Assembly (NCBI GenBank): GCA_026627345.1
Contig: JAPNUP010000183.1
Span: 1 to 62,788, forward strand
Direction of reading: 5' to 3'
Origin: Bacillota bacterium
GTDB lineage: Bacteria; Bacillota; Bacilli; Alicyclobacillales; SLC66
DNA: 62,788 nt
Part shown: in pieces, positions 620-62,788 of the stretch
Numbering within the stretch: position 1 is the stretch's first letter
Layout of the letters: each line of letters starts with the position of its first letter
Made by a program: the position numbers and the translations under genes
The notes under the pieces: model-generated
Seen by the model: the letters and a program-made list of their open reading frames with translations, nothing else
Databases searched by the model: none
Told to the model about the DNA's origin: nothing

Positions 620-1534
620 ATGAAGCACGTGATTAGCGCACAGCACTTTGACCGCTCTGAGTTGCTCGCTTTGCTTCAAAAAGCGCAGACGATGCTGCAA
701 GTGAAGGAAATGGGCGGCGCGGATACGCTACGCGGGAAAATCATGGCCGCACTTTTTTTCGAGCCTTCTACAAGGACGCGGCTGTCTTTTGAAAGCGCGA
801 TGATGCGACTCGGGGGAAATGTGATCAGTACGGAGAATGCGCGTGAGTTTTCATCCGCGATCAAAGGAGAGACTTTAGAAGATACGATTCGCGTCGTGTC
901 GGGTTACGCCGATGTGATCGTCTTGCGTCATCATGAAATAGGTGCAGGAGCGAGAGCGGCACATGTGAGTTCCGTACCTGTTTTGTCGGCAGGCGACGGC
1001 GCAGGCGAACACCCGACGCAAGCTTTGCTCGATCTGTTCACGATTCACCAAGAAATCGGACGCGTAGAAGATCTCACGGTCACCTTGATAGGCGACTTGC
1101 TGTACGGTCGGACCGTGCATTCCCTCGTCTACATACTCAGTCAGTTTAAAGGAATTCGCCTGATTTGCACTGCCCCTGCCGCCACTTCGCTGCCGTCTGA
1201 TGTCCTCGCGTATGCGACAGCGCGCGGGGTCGTAGTCGAACAAGAACCTGATTTGGCGCGAGCTTTGCAGTCCGCGGACGTGGTCTACCAGACGCGCGTG
1301 CAAAAGGAGCGGTTCGCCTCAAGTGAAGAGTATGAGAAAAACAAAGCGGCCTACGTGATTGATCAGACCGCGATGACCTACTTGCCGCCACACGCGATCC
1401 TTATGCACCCTTTGCCACGTGCAGGCGAAATTGCGCCGGTGGTCGATGCAGATCCACGCGCTGCTTATTTTCGCCAGTCTCATTACGGGGTGCCTGTACG
1501 CATGGCCCTCCTGCTTCGCGCTTTCGGACAGTAA
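620..1534 (+). CDS. pyrB: Aspartate carbamoyltransferase catalytic subunit
   Basis: Condenses carbamoyl phosphate with L-aspartate to N-carbamoyl-L-aspartate, the committed pyrimidine step. The carbamoyl-phosphate loop FEPSTRTRLSFESA is near residue 50, and HPTQALLDL and HPLPRAGEI further on are typical of the family. At 304 residues it has normal length for the catalytic chain. No pyrI regulatory subunit follows, as usual for Bacillota. It lies between pyrR (8 nt upstream) and pyrC (39 nt downstream) in the same transcript. Confidence 0.97.
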   Translation: MKHVISAQHFDRSELLALLQKAQTMLQVKEMGGADTLRGKIMAALFFEPSTRTRLSFESAMMRLGGNVISTENAREFSSAIKGETLEDTIRVVSGYADVIVLRHHEIGAGARAAHVSSVPVLSAGDGAGEHPTQALLDLFTIHQEIGRVEDLTVTLIGDLLYGRTVHSLVYILSQFKGIRLICTAPAATSLPSDVLAYATARGVVVEQEPDLARALQSADVVYQTRVQKERFASSEEYEKNKAAYVIDQTAMTYLPPHAILMHPLPRAGEIAPVVDADPRAAYFRQSHYGVPVRMALLLRAFGQ

Positions 1535-42104: not shown

Positions 42105-42956
42105 GTGAACACAGCGCACAGACGTTGGCGCCATCGCGTGTGCGCAGCGTGCCTGCAGGTTCTTCCGAAGCGGTTGCTGACGACTTTGGCGGGTCATGTG
42201 TTGCGCAGTCGCAGCAGTCGCATCTTGGTGCGCGGGTTCGCAGCTGTCTATAGAATCTCACTGACGGACTGCGAACAGCCATGGCAATCGTACCGCTCGC
42301 TGGCCGAGTTCTTTGCCCGCCGACTGCGACCAGGCTTACGGGCATTAGACGGAGATGACCGCGTGATTGCGTCGCCGGTAGACGGTACTGTATCCGAACT
42401 CGGTCGGATCGAGCGCGGGACAGCGATACAGGCTAAAGGGTACGCATACGCGGTCTCGTCCCTTCTTGCCGATCGTGCACACGCTTTTGAGGGTGGTCAA
42501 TATCTGACTATTTACTTAAGCCCAAGTGATTACCACCGGATTCATGCGCCTTTTTCTGCAACCGTGGACAAAGCGATACGCATCCCAGGCACCCTTTTTC
42601 CGGTTAACAGCCTAGGCAGCCAATCGATTCAAAGTCTGTTTACGCGCAATGAGCGCGTCGTGGCATGGCTCAAAGCAGAAGAGCGCGACCTGGCAATGGC
42701 GGCGATCGGATCATTTGTCGTAGGAAGTGTACAGTTAAGCTTGCCCACGGCCACGGTTGCCCGGGCAAGGCGCAACAGCGGCCCCCCTGCCACACTTCTC
42801 ATGAAACCTGTCCCGATCGATCGTGGAGAAGAATTTGGGTGGTTCGAGTTTGGTAGCACAGTGGTCCTCTTATTTGGCCCTGACCAGGCGCAACTTACTG
42901 TACAATCCGGTGAGCGCGTTAAGGCGCTGTCAGGGATCGGCTTCTGGCGGACCTAG
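42105..42956 (+). CDS. psd: Phosphatidylserine decarboxylase proenzyme
   Basis: Makes phosphatidylethanolamine at the membrane; the chain self-cleaves to give a pyruvoyl alpha subunit. The DYHRIHAP motif near residue 141 and the processing site FEFGSTVVLLF near residue 250 (cleaved between Gly and Ser) are present. The central FPVNSLG is also typical. The GTG at 42105 has AGAGGGG upstream and is preferred to GTG 42087. It has 283 residues. It lies between recG and rsmD, not a usual place for psd. Confidence 0.92.
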   Translation: MNTAHRRWRHRVCAACLQVLPKRLLTTLAGHVLRSRSSRILVRGFAAVYRISLTDCEQPWQSYRSLAEFFARRLRPGLRALDGDDRVIASPVDGTVSELGRIERGTAIQAKGYAYAVSSLLADRAHAFEGGQYLTIYLSPSDYHRIHAPFSATVDKAIRIPGTLFPVNSLGSQSIQSLFTRNERVVAWLKAEERDLAMAAIGSFVVGSVQLSLPTATVARARRNSGPPATLLMKPVPIDRGEEFGWFEFGSTVVLLFGPDQAQLTVQSGERVKALSGIGFWRT

Positions 42957-42972
42957 TTTTGTACAGGTATGT

Positions 42973-43014
42973 AAAAAGCGGAGCCGACCCGCTTGGGGCC
43001 GACTCCGCTTTTTT
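42973..43014. terminator. Bidirectional terminator between psd and the small membrane genes
   Basis: AAAAAGCGGAG and CTCCGCTTTTTT form the outer stem, extended by GC pairs with two mismatches, around a 4-5 nt loop. T-runs on both strands allow termination of psd (plus) and of the two small genes (minus). Confidence 0.87.
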
Positions 43015-43026
43015 GCCTTGCGGGGA

Positions 43027-43158
43027 TTAGTACGCTGCGCCAGCGCCAGCGCCTGCGCCGTACCCTGCTCCGCCGAATGCAGGAACGAGAAGGAAGAACA
43101 GAACGAAGATGATCAGAAAGACGACTGCCCAACGTGTGTAACCGCCAAATGTACCCAT
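43027..43158 (-). CDS. Small single-helix membrane protein, paralog 1 (YjcZ-like)
   Basis: A 43-residue protein: a short polar start (MGTFGGYTRW), one hydrophobic helix, and a Gly/Ala-rich tail. GGYTRWAVVFLIIFVLFF is shared almost exactly with the neighbouring 39-residue gene, so they are paralogs. The aromatic start and single helix resemble the small YjcZ-type sporulation proteins; that assignment is tentative. A strong AAGGAGG ribosome site lies upstream. It ends in the terminator at 42973-43014. Missed by standard length cut-offs. Confidence 0.72.
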   Translation of the reverse strand: MGTFGGYTRWAVVFLIIFVLFFLLVPAFGGAGYGAGAGAGAAY

Positions 43159-43221
43159 TTTAAATGGCCTCCTTAGTGTGTGCTACTAGTATCTACTGCA
43201 GACAAGATGCACTGGGCTCGC

Positions 43222-43341
43222 TTAGTAGACAGGCACAGTCGTGCACTGTTGCGTGTAAGCTGGGACCAGCAGGAAGAACAGTACAAAGATGATCAGAAAT
43301 ACGACAGCCCACCGCGTGTATCCACCGAACGTTCCTTCCAT
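43222..43341 (-). CDS. Small single-helix membrane protein, paralog 2 (YjcZ-like)
   Basis: A 39-residue protein starting MEGTFGGYTRW, with the same hydrophobic helix as paralog 1 but a different tail (AYTQQCTTVPVY) containing one cysteine. GAGGAGGT supplies a strong ribosome site. It lies 63 nt upstream of paralog 1 on the same strand, so they are probably co-transcribed. An intrinsic terminator and structured segment lie upstream, between 43432 and 43716. Spore or envelope localisation is a guess. Confidence 0.72.
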   Translation of the reverse strand: MEGTFGGYTRWAVVFLIIFVLFFLLVPAYTQQCTTVPVY

Positions 43342-43431
43342 TTGCAATGACCTCCTCGTTGTTGTTTCGTTTGCTACACTCCAACAGATGCGAGTCGCAT
43401 GCTTTCTGTAAGGGCATCCGCCCGGGCATAC

Positions 43432-43465
43432 AAAAAATCCCCCTCGCCCGGGTACGCGAGGGGGA
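43432..43465 (-). terminator. Intrinsic terminator upstream of the small membrane gene pair
   Basis: A 10-bp stem (43438-43447 with 43456-43465) around an 8-nt loop is followed on the minus strand by six T. No T-run exists on the plus strand, so it works on minus transcripts only. It lies about 90 nt before the 39-residue gene, so it either ends an upstream RNA or acts as an attenuator of the small genes. Confidence 0.85.
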
Positions 43466-43716
43466 AAACCTGAGCTTCACACATGCAGTCGGCAGATGCT
43501 TGCGGCCATCCGCTTATGTAGAGGCGCAAAACTCAGTTACTGGGAGAGGAGAAACCGGAAGAGAGTGCTTGCGCGCTCTCTTTGGTTGCCTTGCGGCGTC
43601 TCCGCCGCTATCTGCAGTGTGGTCAGCCGGTAGTGGCGATATACCTGACGCGGCAGATTTTATGAGTACCGAGCTTTGTGATACAGTGGACATTGTGGAA
43701 AGGGGCGAGCGATCCC
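43466..43716 (-). ncRNA. Candidate structured RNA or leader on the minus strand
   Basis: This stretch encodes no convincing protein. On the minus strand it holds two hairpins with GNRA tetraloops: 43593-43608 (6 bp, GAGA loop) and 43559-43582 (10 positions, GCAA loop, one mismatch). The terminator at 43432-43465 follows. This layout suits a small RNA or a riboswitch-like leader for the two small membrane genes. I matched it to no known class. The same hairpins can fold on the plus strand as an rsmD leader. Confidence 0.4.
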
Positions 43717-44295
43717 TTGAGAATCATCGCGGGTACGCATAAGGGCCGCGTGCTCACGGCTCCTAAAGGCGATTTCACAAGACCGACTGCAGACCGAGTC
43801 AAAGAAGCCGTTTTTTCGATGATCGGACCTTATTTAGATGGTGGGGTCGTCCTTGATCTGTTCGCGGGAACTGGCGCTCTGGGCATCGAATCTTTGAGCC
43901 GTGGCGCCGAGCACAGTGTCTTTGTGGATAAGCACACTGCGGACGTTATCGAAACGAACTTGCGCAACTTCGGATTGCAAAGCCGCAGTACGGTGTTGCG
44001 CGCGGCCTACCCTGCCGTGTGGAAACGATTGGTCAGTGGTGGTTGGCGTTATCAGTGGGTATTTCTAGACCCTCCGTATCGTATGGAGGTGTGTGCGCAG
44101 TGTATGCGTGACTTAGCCGAGGGTGGACTACTGCAAAGCCGGGCGACCATCGTGACAGAGTTAGGCCGCGACGCGGTCACGCCGAGTGTAGAAGGGTTTC
44201 GGTGCGTGCGTGAAAGTCGCTATGGAGATACTAAAATTGCCGTGTTCAGATGGGAGGGTGAGGATGCGAGTAGCCGTATTTCCCGGGAGTTTTGA
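43717..44295 (+). CDS. rsmD: 16S rRNA (guanine-966-N2)-methyltransferase
   Basis: Methylates G966 (E. coli numbering) of 16S rRNA. The family start (R-I-I-A-G-x-x-x-G-R) appears here as LRIIAGTHKGRVL, with TTG 43717 as the start codon and AAAGGGG upstream. The SAM site LDLFAGTGALGIE is near residue 46, and the catalytic FLDPPY near residue 118. It has 192 residues. The in-frame stretch upstream (43678) shows no homology. It overlaps coaD by 32 nt. Confidence 0.93.
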   Translation: MRIIAGTHKGRVLTAPKGDFTRPTADRVKEAVFSMIGPYLDGGVVLDLFAGTGALGIESLSRGAEHSVFVDKHTADVIETNLRNFGLQSRSTVLRAAYPAVWKRLVSGGWRYQWVFLDPPYRMEVCAQCMRDLAEGGLLQSRATIVTELGRDAVTPSVEGFRCVRESRYGDTKIAVFRWEGEDASSRISREF

Positions 44296-62695: not shown

Positions 62696-62788
62696 TGATT
62701 CGAGAGTTTGATCCTGGCTCAGGACGAACGCTGGCGGCGTGCCTAATACATGCAAGTCGCACGGACACCTTCGGGTGTCAGTGGCGGA
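62696..62788 (+). rRNA. 16S ribosomal RNA, 5' end (partial)
   Basis: AGAGTTTGATCCTGGCTCAG at 62703 corresponds to E. coli positions 8-27, and GACGAACGCTGGCGGCGTGC follows. The mature 5' end is therefore near 62696. The gene runs off the window after about 93 nt, too little for species assignment. Confidence 0.95.

Follow-up and report, generated by a model that had tools for sequence, protein, structure and literature searches.

The structured stretch that adjoins rsmD in the window (the whole 62,788-nucleotide stretch of DNA that was analysed) is almost certainly csfG, a stand-alone small RNA gene carried by the minus strand. The window copy is a divergent member of CsfG, an already-known sporulation small RNA of spore-forming bacteria, for which Marchais et al. 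(2011) is reportedly the source in Bacillus subtilis. This confidence applies to the identity and the strand of the gene; the mechanism proposed below, pairing with Shine-Dalgarno sites, is graded separately. The initial annotation had left three options side by side: a riboswitch-like leader of two small genes, a leader of rsmD on the plus strand, and an independent small RNA ending at a terminator, possibly of a new kind. Only the last of these held, with a conserved promoter of its own, a terminator and covariation to support it, and the RNA is not new, as it is CsfG, filed by Rfam on the other strand as RF00516. The most conserved part, a CU-rich stretch at 43541-43556, had been missed. 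Sequence comparison supports the existence of the gene on this strand, with the structure and the probable ends given here, and shows it to be independent of its neighbours; the predicted transcript runs from 43610 to 43432 (about 180 nt), and we infer from sequence that it is expressed in the window's organism. The features are listed in Table 1.

Table 1. Features of the csfG region, in coordinates of the window.
Feature	Position	Strand	Remarks
csfG small RNA gene	43432..43610	minus	58-locus alignment, promoter, terminator, covariation; both ends predicted
−35 element GTATA of the predicted forespore (sigma-F/sigma-G type) promoter	43640..43644	minus	GTAT[AG] in 57/58 loci
−10 element GACCACACT of the same predicted promoter	43616..43624	minus	3/4 fixed positions of GGNNANNNT, spacer 15
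Hairpin 1, GCGGCG-GAGA-CGCCGC	43593..43608	minus	Folding; two-sided changes in 3/6 pairs
Hairpin 2, AACC...GGUU and AAGAGAG...CUCUCUU	43553..43587	minus	Folding, covariation; no CCCC loop
Invariant core GGUUUCUCCUCUCCCA	43541..43556	minus	Identical in 58/58 loci; predicted seed
Hairpin 3, long stem between core and terminator	43470..43536	minus	Folding; helices 4-5 of the covariation analysis; length varies in relatives
Intrinsic terminator	43432..43465	minus	10-bp stem 43438-43465, T6 43432-43437, loop with ACCC
39-aa membrane protein gene	43222..43341	minus	Downstream of csfG, outside the RNA gene; GAGGAGG ribosome site
43-aa paralogue of the 39-aa gene	43027..43158	minus	
Extended −10 TGATACAGT, predicted rsmD promoter	43679..43687	plus	Between csfG and rsmD
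rsmD (ylbH), 16S rRNA guanine-966 methyltransferase	43717..44295	plus	TTG start by homology

The initial annotation had recognised no known riboswitch class here and, indeed, no match in the region attains the gathering score of its Rfam family, the sole match in the window to do so being the end of a 16S rRNA at 62696. The covariance-model search that it had proposed gave as its best match the “ylbH leader” RF00516, at 43428-43607 on the plus strand and over the full length of the model; the score of 22.3 bits (E 0.016, under a permissive limit) is well under the gathering score of 50. This match sits directly upstream of rsmD, alias ylbH, which is the expected place of RF00516. Weak RF00516 matches were counted because their place and the conserved core confirm them; by place, ylbH alone fits among the seven weak Rfam matches, and the other six (anti-hemB, RT-19, Virus_CITE_6, potC, HOTTIP_3 and ACA64) were put down to chance. 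The csfG model finds further matches in the same genome, one of 17.4 bits (E 0.022) and another at E 9.4; the former was rejected as a second csfG copy, as it lacks the core and is a hairpin of terminator type that follows a coding region.

We searched 61 genomes with RF00516 and kept 58 loci, including that of the window, after leaving out G055 (no match), G060 (= L146, no core) and G026 (weak matches only); L135, a surplus stretch, was not used, and L016 and L123 stop before rsmD, so that 56 loci reach this gene. In all 56, a distance of 153-295 nt separates the core from the point downstream where the rsmD similarity starts. At E ≤ 10 the model matches 60 of the 61 genomes, as well as 10 of 14 control genomes; at E ≤ 0.001 it matches 46 of the 61 (counted from the table), with the genome G000 falling outside, and it scores above its cut-off in 10 of the 61 and in none of the 18 genomes of the window's own family. 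Across the class, 182 of 299 genomes match at E ≤ 0.001, and B. subtilis alone does so among the 14 controls. Since the 58 loci had been chosen with RF00516 itself, an independent check was made on 80 named loci chosen by RsmD alone: 45 of them hold the same 16 bases, GGUUUCUCCUCUCCCA, on the minus strand, every one of the 45 with a promoter match. Among the 35 named loci lacking the 16-mer on that strand, one of which (L040) starts at its own rsmD match, 16 were searched with the model, yielding one inverted copy (L059) and 15 without a match, among them the stretch from Paenibacillus L106. There was no csfG match in the five Companilactobacillus loci either, which come from a genus not known to sporulate.

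A forespore-type promoter is predicted in front of csfG from its match to the sigma-F/sigma-G consensus, which is also the basis on which we assign it to that class. On the minus strand of 57 of the 58 loci, GTAT[AG] is followed, after a spacer of 14-15, by at least three of the four fixed bases of GGNNANNNT (all four in 33 loci, three in 24); L141 is the sole exception, and the −10 element of the window has GA where the consensus has GG. Counted on both strands of the loci and with the csfG sites themselves included, the same test (spacers of 14-16) scores 0.33 per kb. The genome of the window holds both sigF (355.6 bits; cut-off 321.45) and sigG (498.1 bits; cut-off 457); this and the lack of a match in 5/5 Companilactobacillus agree with csfG being a gene found in endospore formers. 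The promoter that had been placed near 43660 (TAAAAT) is not the conserved one, which lies at 43616-43644. A scan of 42900-44000 for sigma-70-type promoters found none; the conserved promoters came to light when relatives were compared.

The two hairpins with GNRA loops first annotated at 43593-43608 and 43559-43582 are present (loops GAGA and GCAA on the minus strand) and exceed chance in shuffled sequences, and the 10-bp terminator with its T6 is as it had been described. For 43425-43716, the minus-strand fold reaches -106.7 kcal/mol (z = -3.30, 0/200 shuffles) versus z = -1.63 and 12/200 shuffles for the plus strand; for the two hairpins (43550-43615), z is -5.03 on the minus and -4.08 on the plus strand, with 0/200 shuffles each; for the terminator (43425-43475), it is -3.56 (1/200) and -3.21 (0/200), respectively. 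Because the pieces fold well on the plus strand too, single-sequence folding leaves the strand undecided. An alignment and a test for compensatory changes, both suggested at the outset, support the structure: in the 18 family sequences, 22 of the 41 consensus pairs show two-sided changes, and 96.3% of cells are paired, values that none of 500 shuffles reaches, while slid partners give 6 to 8 such pairs. Another measure of covariation came out weaker: further pair types number 39, a value that 9/500 shuffles reach, the shuffled mean being 34.0. These scores are flattered by the use of one alignment both to derive the structure and to test it, and helix 2, in which AGG faces the CCU of the core, never varies and is thus uninformative on pairing. 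In its predicted fold, the RNA begins with two hairpins at the 5′ end; the CU-rich strand, for the most part exposed, comes next, followed by a third stem and finally by the terminator. The mean unpaired probability of the core is 0.66 in the window and above 0.5 in 46 of the 58 loci (predicted folds); its CCU may pair with the AGG that precedes hairpin 2, with an unpaired probability of 0.25-0.36.

Rfam writes RF00516 on the plus strand and types it as a cis-regulatory leader, the element lies upstream of rsmD in all 56 testable loci, and the hairpin at 43559-43582 does pair without mismatch on the plus strand, as first noticed, with a G-U pair where the minus strand has its one C-A mismatch. 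That the element would be a plus-strand cis-regulatory leader of rsmD, as its Rfam name implies, is nonetheless hardly credible. The gene itself is well identified (TIGR00095, 139.1 bits; cut-off 117.5); a longer open reading frame begins at 43678, and relatives align from its residue 14. csfG adjoins rsmD on the opposite strand and points away from it, with a promoter and a terminator that both face the minus strand. In hairpin 1, a hairpin chosen regardless of strand, G-U pairs occur on the minus strand in 40 of the 58 loci, versus 3 for their plus-strand counterpart. Moreover, 36 of the 58 loci, the window included (16/18 in its family), have an extended −10, TGNTANART, in the stretch from the element to rsmD, where 0.022 would be expected per region; this pattern was chosen after seeing the sequences, and 22 loci are without it. 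The rsmD mRNA thus probably starts beyond the csfG element, at least in those 36 loci. In B. subtilis, according to the passages of PMC3574147 that deal with it, the “ylbH leader”, there credited to Barrick et al. 2004 and called an “orphan riboswitch”, was not detected as a leader, and the northern signal came solely from the reverse strand and was identified as CsfG.

The inverted copy mentioned above also speaks against an rsmD leader. In L059 (Paenibacillus cremeus), csfG is reversed relative to rsmD and lies about 740 bp before it, with an opposite ORF in between; the family model matches 2135-2260 on the other strand (26.7 bits, E 1.2e-6), and the core is absent from the minus strand. 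This copy (about 2104-2262) has GTATA at 2104, a −10 element with 3/4 bases, the hairpins and the core, as well as a terminator-like stem devoid of a clear T-run; regardless of how it is placed relative to rsmD, csfG retains its own strand. The consensus folds favour the minus strand mildly: -59.2 versus -54.9 kcal/mol for A1 (common pairs, 15 G-U versus 10 A-C) and -30.3 versus -24.1 kcal/mol for A2 (10 G-U versus 0 A-C); hairpin 1, the promoter and the terminator weigh more.

Downstream of csfG come the twin small membrane genes, the first of which, with its 39 residues and its ribosome site, was confirmed as initially annotated. The minus-strand order of structure, terminator, ribosome site and gene is that of an attenuator, and 13 of the 18 family genomes have the twin genes behind csfG; the RNA could then be a riboswitch-like leader that senses something and decides whether the terminator forms. 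We consider this very improbable: csfG is kept where the next 1200 bases hold no twin genes in 45 of the 58 loci (5/18 in the family, 40/40 outside it; the stretch is shorter than 1200 bases in six loci that end sooner), and the predicted folds offer no alternative pairing that would compete with the terminator stem. The twin-gene count is the same by an ORF filter over 420 nt and by tblastn at E ≤ 0.001 over up to 1200 nt. An RNA that persists without these genes is not their leader.

The small proteins deserve a few words of their own. Those of 39-43 aa, from the window and L002-L008, share the core GGYTRWAVVFLIIFVLFFLLVP, and a DNA search finds 11 matching places for this multi-copy group in the genome, counting the two in the window. 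The twin proteins match no Pfam or NCBIfam model above its cut-off and presumably resemble small spore proteins of the YjcZ type. By eye, a G+C-rich stem with an A-run on one side and a T-run on the other can be made out at 42972-43017, in the gap that separates psd from the twin genes (part of it is listed on the plus strand); it is perhaps a terminator for both converging transcripts.

As for what the small RNA gene csfG does, it seems fairly likely, by analogy, that CsfG acts in the forespore through pairing with Shine-Dalgarno sites. The gene would be transcribed from its forespore promoter (43616-43644) to its terminator (43432-43465), giving an RNA in which the CU-rich strand UUUCUCCUCUCCC would be exposed between hairpins and the terminator loop would display ACCC. 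The CU-rich strand would pair in trans with the G-rich Shine-Dalgarno sites of forespore mRNAs, perhaps with help from the terminator loop, and the pairing would block translation, in the manner of the C-rich regions of RoxS and FsrA. The proposal draws on this analogy and on the complement of the core, which reads like a strong ribosome site; it is the mostly unpaired CU-rich part of the core that is complementary to Shine-Dalgarno sequences.

CsfG is widespread, yet its target is reported as unknown in passages of PMC8216469 and PMC9147052, neither of which has an mRNA target to name for it; the introduction of PMC12456014, by contrast, describes CsfG and KrrA as regulators of sporulation, germination and competence mRNAs and, in the passage concerned, names no CsfG target. 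It could then be argued that the RNA, with the same identity, works by another route, by binding a forespore protein or by sponging another RNA, all the more as an identity over 16 bases in 58/58 loci seems to exceed what seed pairing with diverse sites would require. Our own target searches, from which none emerged, can be read in the same way. Outside csfG, perfect complements of 12 bases of the core number eight in the 18 family genomes versus nine for the reversed control pattern, and one-mismatch complements in the genome of the window number 12 versus 10, with no excess in either search. Against such a route stand the match of the core to the Shine-Dalgarno complement and the use of C-rich regions in this manner by RoxS and FsrA, as described in parts of PMC4409812 and PMC8216469; we regard it as possible but rather unlikely.

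Five of the eight perfect complements directly precede an open frame as ordinary ribosome sites, and ispG is the sole gene to recur, in two genomes of one genus, although no target is claimed: in L186 and L190 (about 1501-1512, minus strand), the ribosome site of ispG (TIGR00612) is identical to the 12-base complement of the core. The only perfect 12-base complement outside csfG in the genome of the window (L149, 1501-1512, minus strand) directly precedes a gene for a 472-aa MFS-type transporter, whose best NCBIfam model, a phosphate:H+ symporter, stays under its cut-off.

CsfG has been described with three C-rich regions (PMC4409812, in the part devoted to it), and these are not kept alike. 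Hairpin 2 carries CCCC in 38 of the 40 loci that do not belong to the family of the window and in 44 of the 45 named loci, versus none of the 18 loci within it, five of which have CCC there. ACCC, which the window has in its terminator loop, follows the core in 58/58 loci; within 44 nt after the core, it occurs in none of the 45 named loci. Which C-rich parts are present thus depends on the lineage, the core being the one they have in common. Tentatively, the family of the window would have kept the core and the ACCC terminator loop but lost CCCC from the loop of hairpin 2, a natural deletion experiment that would make the 16-base core the essential working part, and its set of forespore targets might have become narrower or shifted. 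Such a comparison tells which parts of csfG can go and which stay, and so narrows the choice of seed for target searches.

Among known systems, CsfG of B. subtilis is the closest by description: it, too, lies upstream of ylbH/rsmD on the opposite strand behind a forespore-type promoter, with a conserved CU-rich stretch between helices and an intrinsic terminator, and passages on the work of others report it to be under sigma-F and sigma-G control. The two differ in their far neighbour, ylbG in B. subtilis, where csfG sits between ylbG and ylbH (PMC3574147, in part), versus the twin membrane genes in the window; moreover, the family of the window is without the CCCC loop in hairpin 2 and has a core-terminator stem of varying length. 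RoxS/RsaE and FsrA share with CsfG the C-rich regions able to pair with ribosome sites, as set out in parts of PMC4409812 and PMC8216469, and differ in being other genes under other control (ResDE, Fur); here, the comparison is one of words only. The “ylbH leader” RF00516 shares with csfG of the window the conserved block GAGAGGAGAAACCGGA, the helices on either side of it and the terminator repeat, all on the complementary strand. Rfam gives it the plus strand and the type of a cis-regulatory leader, whereas our evidence, together with the relevant passages of PMC3574147, points to the other strand; the window's case thus supports a strand correction of RF00516, in a family whose csfG copies all lie under the Rfam cut-off (18/18 genomes).
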